Source of the DNA: Pseudacidovorax intermedius
GTDB lineage: Bacteria > Pseudomonadota > Gammaproteobacteria > Burkholderiales > Burkholderiaceae_C
Assembly (NCBI RefSeq): GCF_003350475.1
Contig: NZ_QQAV01000001.1
Span: 62,001 to 126,000, forward strand
Direction: 5' to 3'
DNA length: 64,000 bases
In this document: in pieces, positions 16,691-19,496 of the stretch
How the letters are laid out: every line of letters starts with the position of its first letter
Position numbering within the stretch: position 1 is the first letter of the stretch
Position numbers and translations under genes: made by a program
Notes under the pieces: model-generated
What the model was told of the DNA's origin: nothing
Database searches by the model: none
The model's input: the letters and a program-made list of their open reading frames with translations, nothing else

Positions 16691-17806
16691 TCAACCGCGA
16701 CGCTTCTTCACCGCCTGCGACAGCACATCCAGCAGGCCGCGCGAATCGTCCCAGCCCAGGCAGGCATCGGTGATGCTCTTGCCGTATTCCAGCGCCGACG
16801 GCACATCCTTGCCCGGCGAGAACTTCTGCGCGCCGGCCTGGATGTGGCTTTCCACCATCACGCCAAAGACCTTGCGGCTGCCGCCCGCGATCTGGTCGGC
16901 GATGTCGCGCGCCACCTCGACCTGCTTCTGGTGCTGCTTGCTGCTGTTGGCATGGCTGCAGTCCACCATCAGCGTGGGCGGCAGGCCGGCGGCCTCCAGG
17001 TCGCGGCAGGCGGTCTCGACGCTGGCGGCGTCGTAGTTGGGCGCCTTGCCGCCACGCAGGATCACGTGGCAGTCCTTGTTGCCGTTGGTCTGCACGATGG
17101 CGACCTGGCCGTTCTTGTGCACCGACAGGAAGTGGTGGCCGCGCGCCGCCGCCTGGATGGCGTCGGTGGCGATGCGGATGTTGCCGTCCGTGCCGTTCTT
17201 GAAGCCGATGGGCGCCGACAGGCCCGAGGCCAGTTCGCGGTGCACCTGGCTCTCGGTGGTGCGCGCGCCGATGGCGCCCCAGGCGATCAGGTCACCGATG
17301 TACTGGGGCGAGATCACGTCCAGGAACTCGCTGCCCGCCGGCAGGCCCAGGCGGTTGATGTCGATGAGCAATTGACGGGCGATGCGCAGGCCCTCGTCGA
17401 TGCGGTAGCTCTCGTCCAGGTACGGGTCGTTGATCAGGCCCTTCCAGCCGACGGTGGTGCGCGGCTTCTCGAAGTACACGCGCATCACGATCTCCAGCGA
17501 GTCGGCGTACTTTTCGCGCTCGGCCTTCAGGCGGCGGGCGTAGTCGAGCGCCGCGGCGGGGTCATGGATGGAACACGGCCCCATCACCACCAGCAGCCGG
17601 TCGTCCTGGCCGGCCATGATGTTGTGGATGTTGCGGCGGGTGTCGGTGATCAGCTTCTCGACGGCCGTGCCATGGATGGGGAAGAAGCGGATGAGGTGTT
17701 CCGGAGGGGGCAGCACGTTGATGTCCTTGATGCGTTCGTCGTCGGTCTGGCTGGTTTTCTCGACGGGCGCATACCAGGGGTTGGCGGTGGCATTGCTGCT
17801 GTTCAT
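16691..17806 (-). CDS. aroG: 3-deoxy-7-phosphoheptulonate (DAHP) synthase, AroG/F/H type
   Basis: A 371-residue type I DAHP synthase. It condenses phosphoenolpyruvate with erythrose 4-phosphate, the entry step to the shikimate pathway. Conserved segments: GPCSIHDP, RVYFEKPRTTVGWKGLINDP (PEP and metal site), GARTTESQVHRELASGL, GFKNGTDG and DCSHANS. The N-terminal extension that forms the feedback-inhibition site in the family is present, but which amino acid it senses cannot be read with certainty. Transcription should start near 17990 and pass through an aromatic-rich leader peptide and a terminator at 17855-17891, so expression is probably controlled by attenuation. aroE lies elsewhere in the window (24521). 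Confidence 0.96.
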   Translation of the reverse strand: MNSSNATANPWYAPVEKTSQTDDERIKDINVLPPPEHLIRFFPIHGTAVEKLITDTRRNIHNIMAGQDDRLLVVMGPCSIHDPAAALDYARRLKAEREKYADSLEIVMRVYFEKPRTTVGWKGLINDPYLDESYRIDEGLRIARQLLIDINRLGLPAGSEFLDVISPQYIGDLIAWGAIGARTTESQVHRELASGLSAPIGFKNGTDGNIRIATDAIQAAARGHHFLSVHKNGQVAIVQTNGNKDCHVILRGGKAPNYDAASVETACRDLEAAGLPPTLMVDCSHANSSKQHQKQVEVARDIADQIAGGSRKVFGVMVESHIQAGAQKFSPGKDVPSALEYGKSITDACLGWDDSRGLLDVLSQAVKKRRG

Positions 17807-17854: not shown

Positions 17855-17891
17855 AAAAAAAACCGCCGGGCTTGTGGCACCGGCGGTTTTT
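17855..17891 (-). terminator. Attenuator hairpin in the aroG leader
   Basis: Read on the minus strand, AAAAACCGCCGG (17891-17880) pairs with CCGGCGGTTTTT (17869-17858) around a 10-nt loop, with an eight-U run at 17862-17855. It stands 49 bp before the aroG start and after a tiny leader ORF, so it ends transcription before the gene it precedes. The 5' arm core CCGCCGG can instead pair with CCGGCGG inside the leader ORF (17931-17937), which would form an antiterminator. This is the classic 2:3 versus 3:4 arrangement. Confidence 0.9.
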
Positions 17892-17911
17892 GAGGGGTGG
17901 GGTTGTTGCGT

Positions 17912-17986
17912 TTACGCGCGCGCCTCTCGTCCGCCGGAGTCCGGGAACCAAAAGTAGGCAAGGTAATAAGCGCGTTGAGCGAACAT
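17912..17986 (-). CDS. Aromatic-rich leader peptide of aroG (24 aa)
   Basis: ATG 17986 opens a 24-codon frame ending in TAA at 17912. Residues 2-14 contain seven aromatics: three Phe, three Tyr and one Trp, with the core YYLAYFWF at 7-14. The chance of such a run just before a terminator and a DAHP synthase is small. Stalling of the ribosome on Tyr, Phe or Trp codons when the charged tRNA is scarce would favour the antiterminator. The second half of the peptide codes the RNA arm (17931-17937) that competes with the terminator. The Shine-Dalgarno is weak (GAG about 10 nt upstream). Too short for standard gene callers. Confidence 0.85.
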   Translation of the reverse strand: MFAQRAYYLAYFWFPDSGGREARA

Positions 17987-17994
17987 GGAGCGCG

Positions 17995-18022
17995 ACTCTA
18001 GCACGTAAAAAACGGCTGCCAA
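17995..18022 (-). promoter_or_regulatory. Predicted sigma-70 promoter of the aroG leader
   Basis: On the minus strand, -35 TTGGCA (18022-18017), a 16-nt spacer and -10 TAGAGT (18000-17995). It lies just after the tldD stop. Transcription would start near 17988, only a few nt before the leader ATG, so the leader mRNA would have almost no 5' UTR. The promoter assignment is therefore moderate. Confidence 0.5.
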
Positions 18023-18035
18023 GCTGTATTTATGC

Positions 18036-19496
18036 TCAGGCCGTGCCACCGACGGTGAGGCGGTCGATGCGCAGCGTGGGCTGGCCCACGCCCACGGGCA
18101 CGCTCTGGCCCTCCTTGCCGCAGGTGCCCACGCCGGTGTCCAGCTTCATGTCGTTGCCGATCATGCTCACGCGCGTCAGTGCGTCCGGGCCGTTGCCCAC
18201 GATGGTCGCGCCCTTGACCGGGTAGAGAAGTTTGCCCTTCTCGACCCACCAGGCCTCGCTGGCCGAGAACACGAACTTGCCGCTGGTGATGTCGACCTGG
18301 CCGCCGCCGAAGTTGGTGGCGTACAGGCCTTTGTCGATGCTGGCGACGATCTCGTCCGGGTGGCGGTCGCCGCCCAGCATGTAGGTGTTGGTCATGCGCG
18401 GCATGGGCAGGTGCGCATAGCTCTCGCGCCGACCATTGCCGGTGGGCGCCACGCCCATCAGGCGGGCGTTGAGCGAATCCTGGATGTAGCCCTTGAGGAT
18501 GCCGTCCTCGATCAGCACGTTGCGCTGGCTGGGGTTGCCCTCGTCGTCCACGTTGAGCGAGCCGCGGCGGTCGGCGATGGTGCCGTCGTCCAGCACCGTC
18601 ACGCCCTTGGCCGCCACGCGCTGGCCGATGCGACCGCTGAAGGCGCTGGAGCCCTTGCGGTTGAAGTCGCCTTCCAGGCCGTGGCCCACCGCCTCGTGCA
18701 GCAGGATGCCGGGCCAGCCGGGGCCGAGCACCACGACCATCTCGCCAGCCGGGGCCGGGCGCGATTCGAGGTTGGTCAGGGCCGAATTGACGGCATGGTC
18801 CACGTACTCGGCGATCTGCTCGTCGCCGAAGTAGGCCAGGCCGAAGCGGCCGCCGCCGCCGCCGGAGCCGATCTCGCGGCGGCCGTTGTGTTCCGCAATG
18901 ACCGTGACCGACAGGCGCACCAGCGGGCGCACGTCGGCGGCCAGCGTGCCGTCCGCACGCGCCACCAAAACCACGTCGTATTCGCTCGCCAGGCCCGCCA
19001 TGACCTGCGCGATGCGCGGGTCGCGGCTGCGGGCCAGCTTCTCGACCTTTTCGAGCAGCGCCACCTTGGCCGTGCTGTCGAGTGTGGCGATGGGGTCGAT
19101 GCCGCCGTAGAGCTGGCGACTGGGCGCCACCTTGCGGGCCGGCGCCTTGACGCGGCCCGACTTGCCGGCCGCGGCGATGGCACGCACGGTGCGAGCCGCG
19201 TCGAGGAGCGAGGCCTCGGAGATGTCGTCGGAATAGGCGAAGGCGGTCTTCTCGCCGCTCACTGCGCGCACGCCCACGCCCTGGTCGATGGAGAAGCTGC
19301 CCGTCTTGACGATGCCTTCCTCCAGGCTCCAGCCCTCGGCGCGGGTGTACTGGAAGTACAGGTCCGCGTCGTCCACCTTGTGCGCGCGGATCTCGGCCAG
19401 GGCCCTCGCCAGGTGCGTCTCGTCGAGCCCGAAGGGCGTGAGCAAAAGCTGCTGCGCCGTGGCCAGGCGCTCGAGGGTGGGTTCGCGGGAGATCAT
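18036..19496 (-). CDS. tldD: Metalloprotease TldD
   Basis: A 486-residue member of the TldD/PmbA (U62) family. The metal-binding stretch HEAVGHGLEGD supplies the HExxxH ligands. The C-terminal region has the family block VDITSGKFVFSASEAWWVE and GNGPDALTRVSMIGNDM. In other bacteria TldD works as a heterodimer with TldE/PmbA and degrades unfolded peptides or matures antibiotic peptides such as microcin B17. No pmbA is in this window. The start MISREPTLERL at 19496 has no competing upstream start with family support. Confidence 0.95.
   Translation of the reverse strand: MISREPTLERLATAQQLLLTPFGLDETHLARALAEIRAHKVDDADLYFQYTRAEGWSLEEGIVKTGSFSIDQGVGVRAVSGEKTAFAYSDDISEASLLDAARTVRAIAAAGKSGRVKAPARKVAPSRQLYGGIDPIATLDSTAKVALLEKVEKLARSRDPRIAQVMAGLASEYDVVLVARADGTLAADVRPLVRLSVTVIAEHNGRREIGSGGGGGRFGLAYFGDEQIAEYVDHAVNSALTNLESRPAPAGEMVVVLGPGWPGILLHEAVGHGLEGDFNRKGSSAFSGRIGQRVAAKGVTVLDDGTIADRRGSLNVDDEGNPSQRNVLIEDGILKGYIQDSLNARLMGVAPTGNGRRESYAHLPMPRMTNTYMLGGDRHPDEIVASIDKGLYATNFGGGQVDITSGKFVFSASEAWWVEKGKLLYPVKGATIVGNGPDALTRVSMIGNDMKLDTGVGTCGKEGQSVPVGVGQPTLRIDRLTVGGTA

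Follow-up and report, generated by a model that had tools for sequence, protein, structure and literature searches.

A predicted leaderless attenuator that would sense phenylalanine, tyrosine and tryptophan before the DAHP synthase gene aroG of Pseudacidovorax intermedius and its relatives

AroG is a type I DAHP synthase of Pseudacidovorax intermedius (family Burkholderiaceae_C, order Burkholderiales, class Gammaproteobacteria). Its gene follows tldD in the 64-kb stretch of DNA that was analysed as a whole and that is called the window here. A short frame rich in aromatic codons, a promoter-like box and a terminator lie between the two genes. The features of the locus are listed in the order of transcription.

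18036..19496, minus strand: tldD, the upstream neighbour; 32 nt lie between its stop codon and the extended -10 box
18017..18022, minus strand: possible -35 box TTGGCA, with a spacer of 16
17995..18003, minus strand: extended -10 promoter TGC-TAGAGT, whose last base lies 8 nt before the leader ATG
17986..17987, minus strand: transcription start predicted from the promoter position, on the A of the leader ATG or the base beside it
17912..17986, minus strand: leader peptide frame MFAQRAYYLAYFWFPDSGGREARA, 24 codons plus stop
17945..17956, minus strand: distal sensor block Tyr-Phe-Trp-Phe (TAC TTT TGG TTC), the predicted stall site that would free arm 2
17941..17948, minus strand: arm 1 (protector); when the nascent RNA is free, its fold pairs this arm with arm 2 and the bases that follow
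17931..17937, minus strand: arm 2, CCGGCGG, within the leader frame
17923..17928, minus strand: conserved GAGAGG; in the window fold, its GAGG lengthens the antiterminator by pairing with a CCTC that immediately precedes arm 3
17855..17891, minus strand: intrinsic terminator, with arm 4 CCGGCGG at 17869-17863 and a U-run of eight T at 17862-17855
17880..17886, minus strand: arm 3, CCGCCGG, which can pair with arm 2 (antiterminator) or arm 4 (terminator)
17819-17815, minus strand: Shine-Dalgarno sequence AAGGA of aroG itself
16691..17806, minus strand: aroG, type I DAHP synthase (NCBIfam aroFGH TIGR00034, E 5.7e-163), start at 17806

A preliminary description of this DNA had read a 24-codon frame at 17986-17912 with three Phe, three Tyr and one Trp among residues 2-14, and the leader MFAQRAYYLAYFWFPDSGGREARA agrees with that reading letter by letter. 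The terminator that it had placed at 17891-17855, between the leader and aroG, is indeed there and forms part of the minimum-energy fold of a 191-nt stretch. The CCGGCGG motif that it had noted at 17931-17937 does complement the 5' arm of the terminator, CCGCCGG at 17886-17880. An aromatic-rich upstream frame, an intrinsic terminator and an antiterminator arm that is mutually exclusive with the terminator, by which an attenuator is recognized, are thus all found at this locus. Among the 694 ATG-started frames of 8-60 amino acids on either strand of the window, each nested start being counted as a frame of its own, the leader is the only one with at least six F, Y or W per 10 residues. The leader peptide has no match in NCBIfam, and Rfam returns nothing above the gathering score for the leader region, where the best hit is STnc310 at 19.7 bits against 40 and on the opposite strand. 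With sub-threshold matches only, the element is assigned to no curated Rfam leader family.

Comparison with relatives was based on 122 aroG loci, which comprise 15 genomes of the genus, 80 named contigs and 27 new loci from a sample of 200 family genomes (198 matched; loci given for 30). The named contigs are the best 80 of 591 matches and are therefore biased to near relatives, the best being 97% identical and assigned to an uncultured Pseudacidovorax. An upstream frame with at least four F, Y or W in 10 residues was recognized by script at 116 of the 122 loci. With the addition of L034, where a leader is present, and the exclusion of L059, which has 4 bases upstream of the match, a leader frame precedes aroG at 117 of 121 testable loci. 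Comamonas testosteroni and a Variovorax isolate are among the relatives with a leader. The leader is missing at the other four loci, namely three Polynucleobacter loci (L090, L092 and L095) and one on chromosome 2 of Cupriavidus (L091). The same three Polynucleobacter loci carry a TAAAAT box 6 nt before the aroG ATG, as if aroG itself were leaderless, and two other Polynucleobacter MAGs (L076 and L082) have the leader. A contig labelled Solimonas (L039) likewise has such a leader before an aroG that is 83% identical to the query, a finding that points to transfer or to a wrongly labelled genome.

The locus set contains duplicates, and the 116 leaders reduce to 105 unique leader DNAs. At least six F, Y or W per 10 residues occur in 98 of these 105, against 1 of 2100 dinucleotide-shuffled upstream regions. 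Of the 122 regions upstream of aroG, 116 contain a GC-rich, terminator-like hairpin that has a T-run, and arm 2 complements the 5' arm of the hairpin. Both observations bear on the alternative that the ribosome on the leader controls aroG translation or the access of Rho and does not act on the intrinsic terminator. Leader frames can generally work in this way, and yet a conserved hairpin of this type with a matching upstream arm makes translational or Rho-dependent control very unlikely.

What is conserved in the region that encodes arm 2, the peptide or the RNA? Among 83 leaders with a Gly-Gly pair, 82 use GGC for the first Gly, and the second is GGA in 55, GGT in 23 and GGC in 5; GGA is used for none of the 180 Gly codons of four window genes. 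Of the 105 unique leaders, 82 read the GGCGG core in frame 0 and 16 in frame 2 (...HRPAEERS... versus ...VPGGREA... is an example of the difference), and 7 lack it. Given the near-constant GGC at the first Gly and the use of GGCGG in two frames, bases rather than residues are what is kept. The arms of distant families read CTGGCGG (arm 2), CCGCCAG (arm 3) and CTGGCGG (arm 4), with T-A-T in place of C-G-C. This T-A-T state is observed at 11 of 148 loci as parsed, or at 13 after two (L133 and L148) were corrected by eye, and may trace to few events. L087 has GGGGCGGCT with AGCCGCCCC. The preliminary description had proposed, as a check, to look in relatives for a conserved leader frame and mutually exclusive arms and for compensatory changes in arms 2, 3 and 4. 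The comparison bears it out: the leader frame and the exclusive arms are conserved, and a compensated change affects all three arms in distant families.

Pairing statistics locate this signal within the helix. Position -1 of arms 2 and 3 is paired in 76% of the 105 unique arm triples compared with 68% after shuffling, a level reached by 1 of 5000 shuffles, and the observed pairing at position -2 is reached by 73 of 5000, with shuffles that ignore relatedness. Positions -3 and -4 exhibit no covariation signal in the same triples. For this test, L123 was dropped as lying at the same place as L001. Position -1 is unpaired at 28 of the 148 loci, 20 of which have A against G. The table of helix lengths understates pairing because pattern slips remain, such as GGCCG or GCGCC cores. 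In the close family (90 sequences, with L052, L087 and L104 left out), RNAalifold returns four pairs for arms 2 and 3 with no covariation bonus and no consensus hairpin of arms 1 and 2. The lack of a covariation signal there is explained by arms that hardly vary, and the compensation signal comes from the frame changes and the distant families. As a separate observation, GAGAGG (17928-17923 in the window) is conserved beyond the need of GGCGG pairing; its possible partners are the CTC stretches before arm 3, as in the window fold, or a leader TTCTC in relatives, as judged by eye.

A covariance model, R1, extended the comparison to whole genomes. Among the 116 elements, 93 are nonredundant, and 72 of these, without L052 and L104, were used for R1, which is largely a profile of the sequence with no more than 6 base pairs. 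R1 matches all 120 host-family genomes of at least 95% completeness, in 115 of 115 genera, some of these genomes having supplied R1. In five family genomes compared by eye (G088, G145, G138, G049 and G028), the R1 match ends 49-68 nt before the aroG match. In an order-wide draw, R1 matches 35 of 150 genomes, four of them from the host family. All 30 order-wide loci that were fetched (the window's own, three more from the host family and 26 from other families) adjoin an aroG homologue that is 59-100% identical to the query. A draw across the class yields four matching genomes among 184: two belong to the host family, and the other two to a single family outside the order, where both matches lie before aroG. 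The association of R1 matches with aroG is independent evidence because the search is blind to genes. R1 finds no match in 115 of the 150 order genomes and 180 of the 184 class genomes under strict filters, such that a non-match does not show absence. Judged by these sequence matches, the predicted attenuator element is family-wide.

The tldD gene ends just upstream of the leader, and the single-sequence fold of the whole 191-nt stretch has a z value of only -1.71, with 10 of 200 shuffles equally or more stable, and exceeds shuffled sequences in stability only mildly. These two points would fit a hairpin that serves as the tldD terminator only and an aromatic frame that is incidental. That explanation is barely credible and is already contradicted by conservation, given the excess of aromatic frames over shuffled regions, the family-wide element and an arm 2 that is kept in two frames.

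A promoter-like box, on which the preliminary description was silent, precedes the leader. Over 108 nonredundant loci, the highest-scoring box is an extended -10 element, TGN-TANNNT, with the hexamer TACATT in 71; its end lies 6, 7 or 8 nt from the leader ATG in 103 of the 108, under a box scoring that favoured TG and TANNNT. A fixed test is more trustworthy than this scoring; TGNTANNNT at 6-8 nt before the ATG occurs in 100 of 105 unique loci compared with 7 of 5250 shuffled upstream regions. No clear -35 box is found in most relatives. A Shine-Dalgarno-like 4-mer (AGGA, GGAG, GAGG or AAGG at -20 to -4) precedes the leader in 0 of 105 loci, versus 92 of 105 for aroG. In the host genome, GTGCTANANTN{6,8}ATG occurs once, at the leader, and twice in the reversed control, a count that is no evidence by itself. 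By standard promoter spacing, transcription from a -10 box at such a distance begins with the A of the ATG or immediately beside it. The position of the extended -10 box, together with the lack of a Shine-Dalgarno sequence, therefore makes the leader mRNA look leaderless, with the leader frame apparently translated from its very 5' end. Alternatively, the attenuator could be real and its leader could be carried on an ordinary leadered mRNA that begins further upstream. Promoter position is the sole ground for leaderless initiation, which leaves some room for such an mRNA, but the tight placement of the extended -10 box and the missing Shine-Dalgarno sequence render it rather unlikely.

The composition of the leader indicates which amino acids would be sensed. 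A unique leader contains on average 4.37 Phe, 1.61 Tyr and 0.97 Trp, and all three amino acids are found in 97 of the 105. Near the end of the aromatic run, 74 of the 105 unique leaders have [YF]FWF[SPL]. Arm 2 should be freed only by a stall late in the run, and we infer that a shortage of any one of the three should therefore act. The Phe codon before Trp is TTT in 68 of these 74 leaders; in four window genes, Phe is encoded by TTT in 2 of 67 cases and by TTC in 65 of 67. TnaC, a nascent peptide that arrests the ribosome with Trp, offers a different model, in which the aroG leader peptide would bind an aromatic amino acid in the ribosome and arrest it with no need for codon starvation. Peptide conservation of the [YF]FWF[SPL] type would be in keeping with arrest. 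However, a specific arrest sequence would not be expected to exchange F, Y, W and H between families or to have its C-terminal part read in more than one frame, as happens here, and a biosynthetic gene should be induced by shortage, not excess; arrest of this kind is thus highly improbable.

Codon-based sensing of three amino acids can be compared with the enzymes of the host. The genome of the host (100% complete by listing) contains one type I DAHP synthase, AroG; PF00793 has one more match there, identified by TIGR01362 as KDO-8-phosphate synthase, and a type II DAHP synthase was not found in this genome. A single DAHP synthase is not the family rule because many host-family genomes have at least two AroG matches. 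E. coli is described as having three DAHP synthases, with one inhibitory amino acid for each (PMC5343134), and its aroG as repressed by TyrR (PMC11878033), the latter in agreement with the preliminary description. The joint sensing of Phe, Tyr and Trp that the same description had put forward gains support from the leader composition and from the single DAHP synthase of this genome.

Predicted folds were used to compare the states of the element. The nascent fold comprises the RNA up to the loop after arm 3, and an antiterminator was scored at four or more pairs between arms 2 and 3. With the whole leader free, arms 2 and 3 pair at 46 of 116 loci. With the ribosome on the penultimate aromatic codon and the covered part removed, they pair at 115 of 116, in a stall model that never lets the ribosome cover arm 2 (the ribosome edge has a median of 1 nt short of arm 2, where it is capped, and ranges from 16 nt short of the arm to 2 nt inside it). 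With the ribosome at the stop codon, the terminator forms at 116 of 116 loci. The complete RNA at equilibrium still folds into the terminator at 101 of 116 loci in the presence of a stalled ribosome. Because the complete RNA favours the terminator, the antiterminator must form before arm 4 is made, as a kinetic switch. In the window, the free nascent leader has arm 2 tied to the upstream bases 17948-17941, and the stalled state contains the CCGGCGG:CCGCCGG helix, the GAGG:CCTC helix and a small inner hairpin. Over the 116 loci, arm 2 of the free nascent RNA pairs with an upstream partner in 52, with arm 3 in 44 and with bases between the arms in 4, and is mostly single-stranded in 16. Protector arm 1 thus does not seem clearly conserved, though pairing of arms 1 and 2 is present in the window fold.

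We propose that a ribosome-mediated transcription attenuator on a leaderless mRNA very probably controls aroG. The preliminary description had deduced ribosome-mediated attenuation of this gene, and comparative genomics of the frame, the arms and the compensated changes lends that deduction strong support. The frame, arms, terminator, promoter-like box and its position, lack of a Shine-Dalgarno sequence, conservation and compensated changes are read from the sequence, and from them we infer the start site, translation, stalling and amino acid response. RNA polymerase would begin with the A of the leader ATG or the base beside it, and leader translation would be initiated by a ribosome that is probably a 70S particle, as the leader lacks a Shine-Dalgarno sequence. 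When charged tRNA-Phe, tRNA-Tyr and tRNA-Trp are sufficient, the ribosome would reach the stop codon, arm 2 would be covered or held by arm 1, arms 3 and 4 would pair and transcription would end at 17855. When any one of the three is short, the ribosome would wait in the Tyr-Phe-Trp-Phe block, where it would cover arm 1 and not arm 2. Arm 2, with GAGG, would then pair with arm 3 before arm 4 exists, allowing the polymerase to read into aroG.

Weak second R1 matches in family genomes lead to a leader of similar design before leuA. Such leaders were found at seven family loci (L157, L159, L160, L161, L165, L166 and L167), and a terminator-like hairpin follows in all seven. Four of these loci were found by R1 itself and are biased; the other three represent 3 of 3 family loci outside the genus. 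The leuA leaders have TANNNT 6-8 nt before the ATG and are rich in Leu, as in MSNFSISLLLDVRHGQVW and MKSFALALLLSSHGRRR, and TIGR00973 identifies leuA on L165 and L174. The leader is absent from the 15 leuA loci of the window's own genus, and 5 of 10 leuA loci of other families look similar, with less certainty (L185, L186, L187, L189 and L190). Relatives thus apparently have a second attenuator, which also looks leaderless, before leuA. It is reasonably likely that a single leaderless-attenuator design recurs at several amino acid genes of Burkholderiales, with a terminated RNA and a peptide that perhaps act in trans. In the shared design, an extended -10 box that abuts the leader ATG would let the first ribosome load on the 5' end as it leaves the polymerase. 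The aroG version would place three amino acids in a four-codon block, with an any-one-missing logic, and the leuA version of relatives would use Leu codons. By analogy with Sinorhizobium, the short terminated RNA and the peptide might act in trans.

Beyond the preliminary description, the analysis adds the apparent leaderless translation, the family-wide element and the similar leuA design in relatives. In a large group of bacteria, the attenuator would likely control the first committed step of aromatic synthesis, and in this genome the one DAHP synthase that was found must supply three products. The element could also serve as a natural system for the coupling of a leaderless ribosome to RNA polymerase in attenuation. 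The conserved leader is new to NCBIfam and Rfam as searched. No description of an attenuator before aroG in Burkholderiales was found in the open literature. Vitreschak and others 2004 (FEMS Microbiol Lett 234:357) could contain related predictions. The main text of a survey of premature terminators (PMC2965389) contains no 'aroG', 'DAHP' or 'phenylalanine', and 'dahp' and 'arof' are absent from the main text of a Streptomyces lividans study (PMC8079986).

How does the aroG element relate to known attenuators? In the pheL and trpL systems, the antiterminator and the terminator are mutually exclusive. The pheA and trpE attenuators of enteric bacteria are described with leaders (pheL and trpL) that contain consecutive Phe or Trp codons (PMC11878033, PMC5343134). 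They resemble the aroG element in that a leader with codons for the amino acid precedes a pathway gene; the aroG element differs in its DAHP synthase gene, its three amino acids per block and its leader without a Shine-Dalgarno sequence. In multivalent attenuators of the ilvGMEDA type, one leader serves several branched-chain amino acids, any of which can cause the stall. The aroG leader is similarly multivalent, with aromatic in place of branched-chain amino acids.

The rnTrpL RNA of Sinorhizobium meliloti is reported to start with the trpL ATG and may therefore be a leaderless mRNA, and trans roles are reported for both the RNA and the peptide, peTrpL (PMC7298713). It is like the predicted aroG leader in that the attenuator RNA begins at the leader ATG, and unlike it in its Trp codons, its bacterial class and its target, trpE(G). 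Leaderless leader frames before amino acid genes (leuL, trpL, ilvL and others) are described in S. lividans (PMC8079986) and represent the same kind of design in another phylum. The uORFC-13-1 motif, reported from Acholeplasma and environmental sequences, is a predicted attenuator uORF before the DAHP synthase gene aroF; its description includes an RBS and one or more Phe codons, and attenuation of E. coli aroF is mentioned in the same source as a past hypothesis (PMC8632094). The motif likewise precedes a DAHP synthase gene, but it has an RBS, whereas the aroG leader has none before its start and has three amino acids, and the aroG leader is not a member of uORFC-13-1 by this feature. The aroG element thus appears to belong to a known kind, ribosome-mediated attenuation, and what would be new is a family-wide, apparently leaderless, three-amino-acid attenuator of DAHP synthase.
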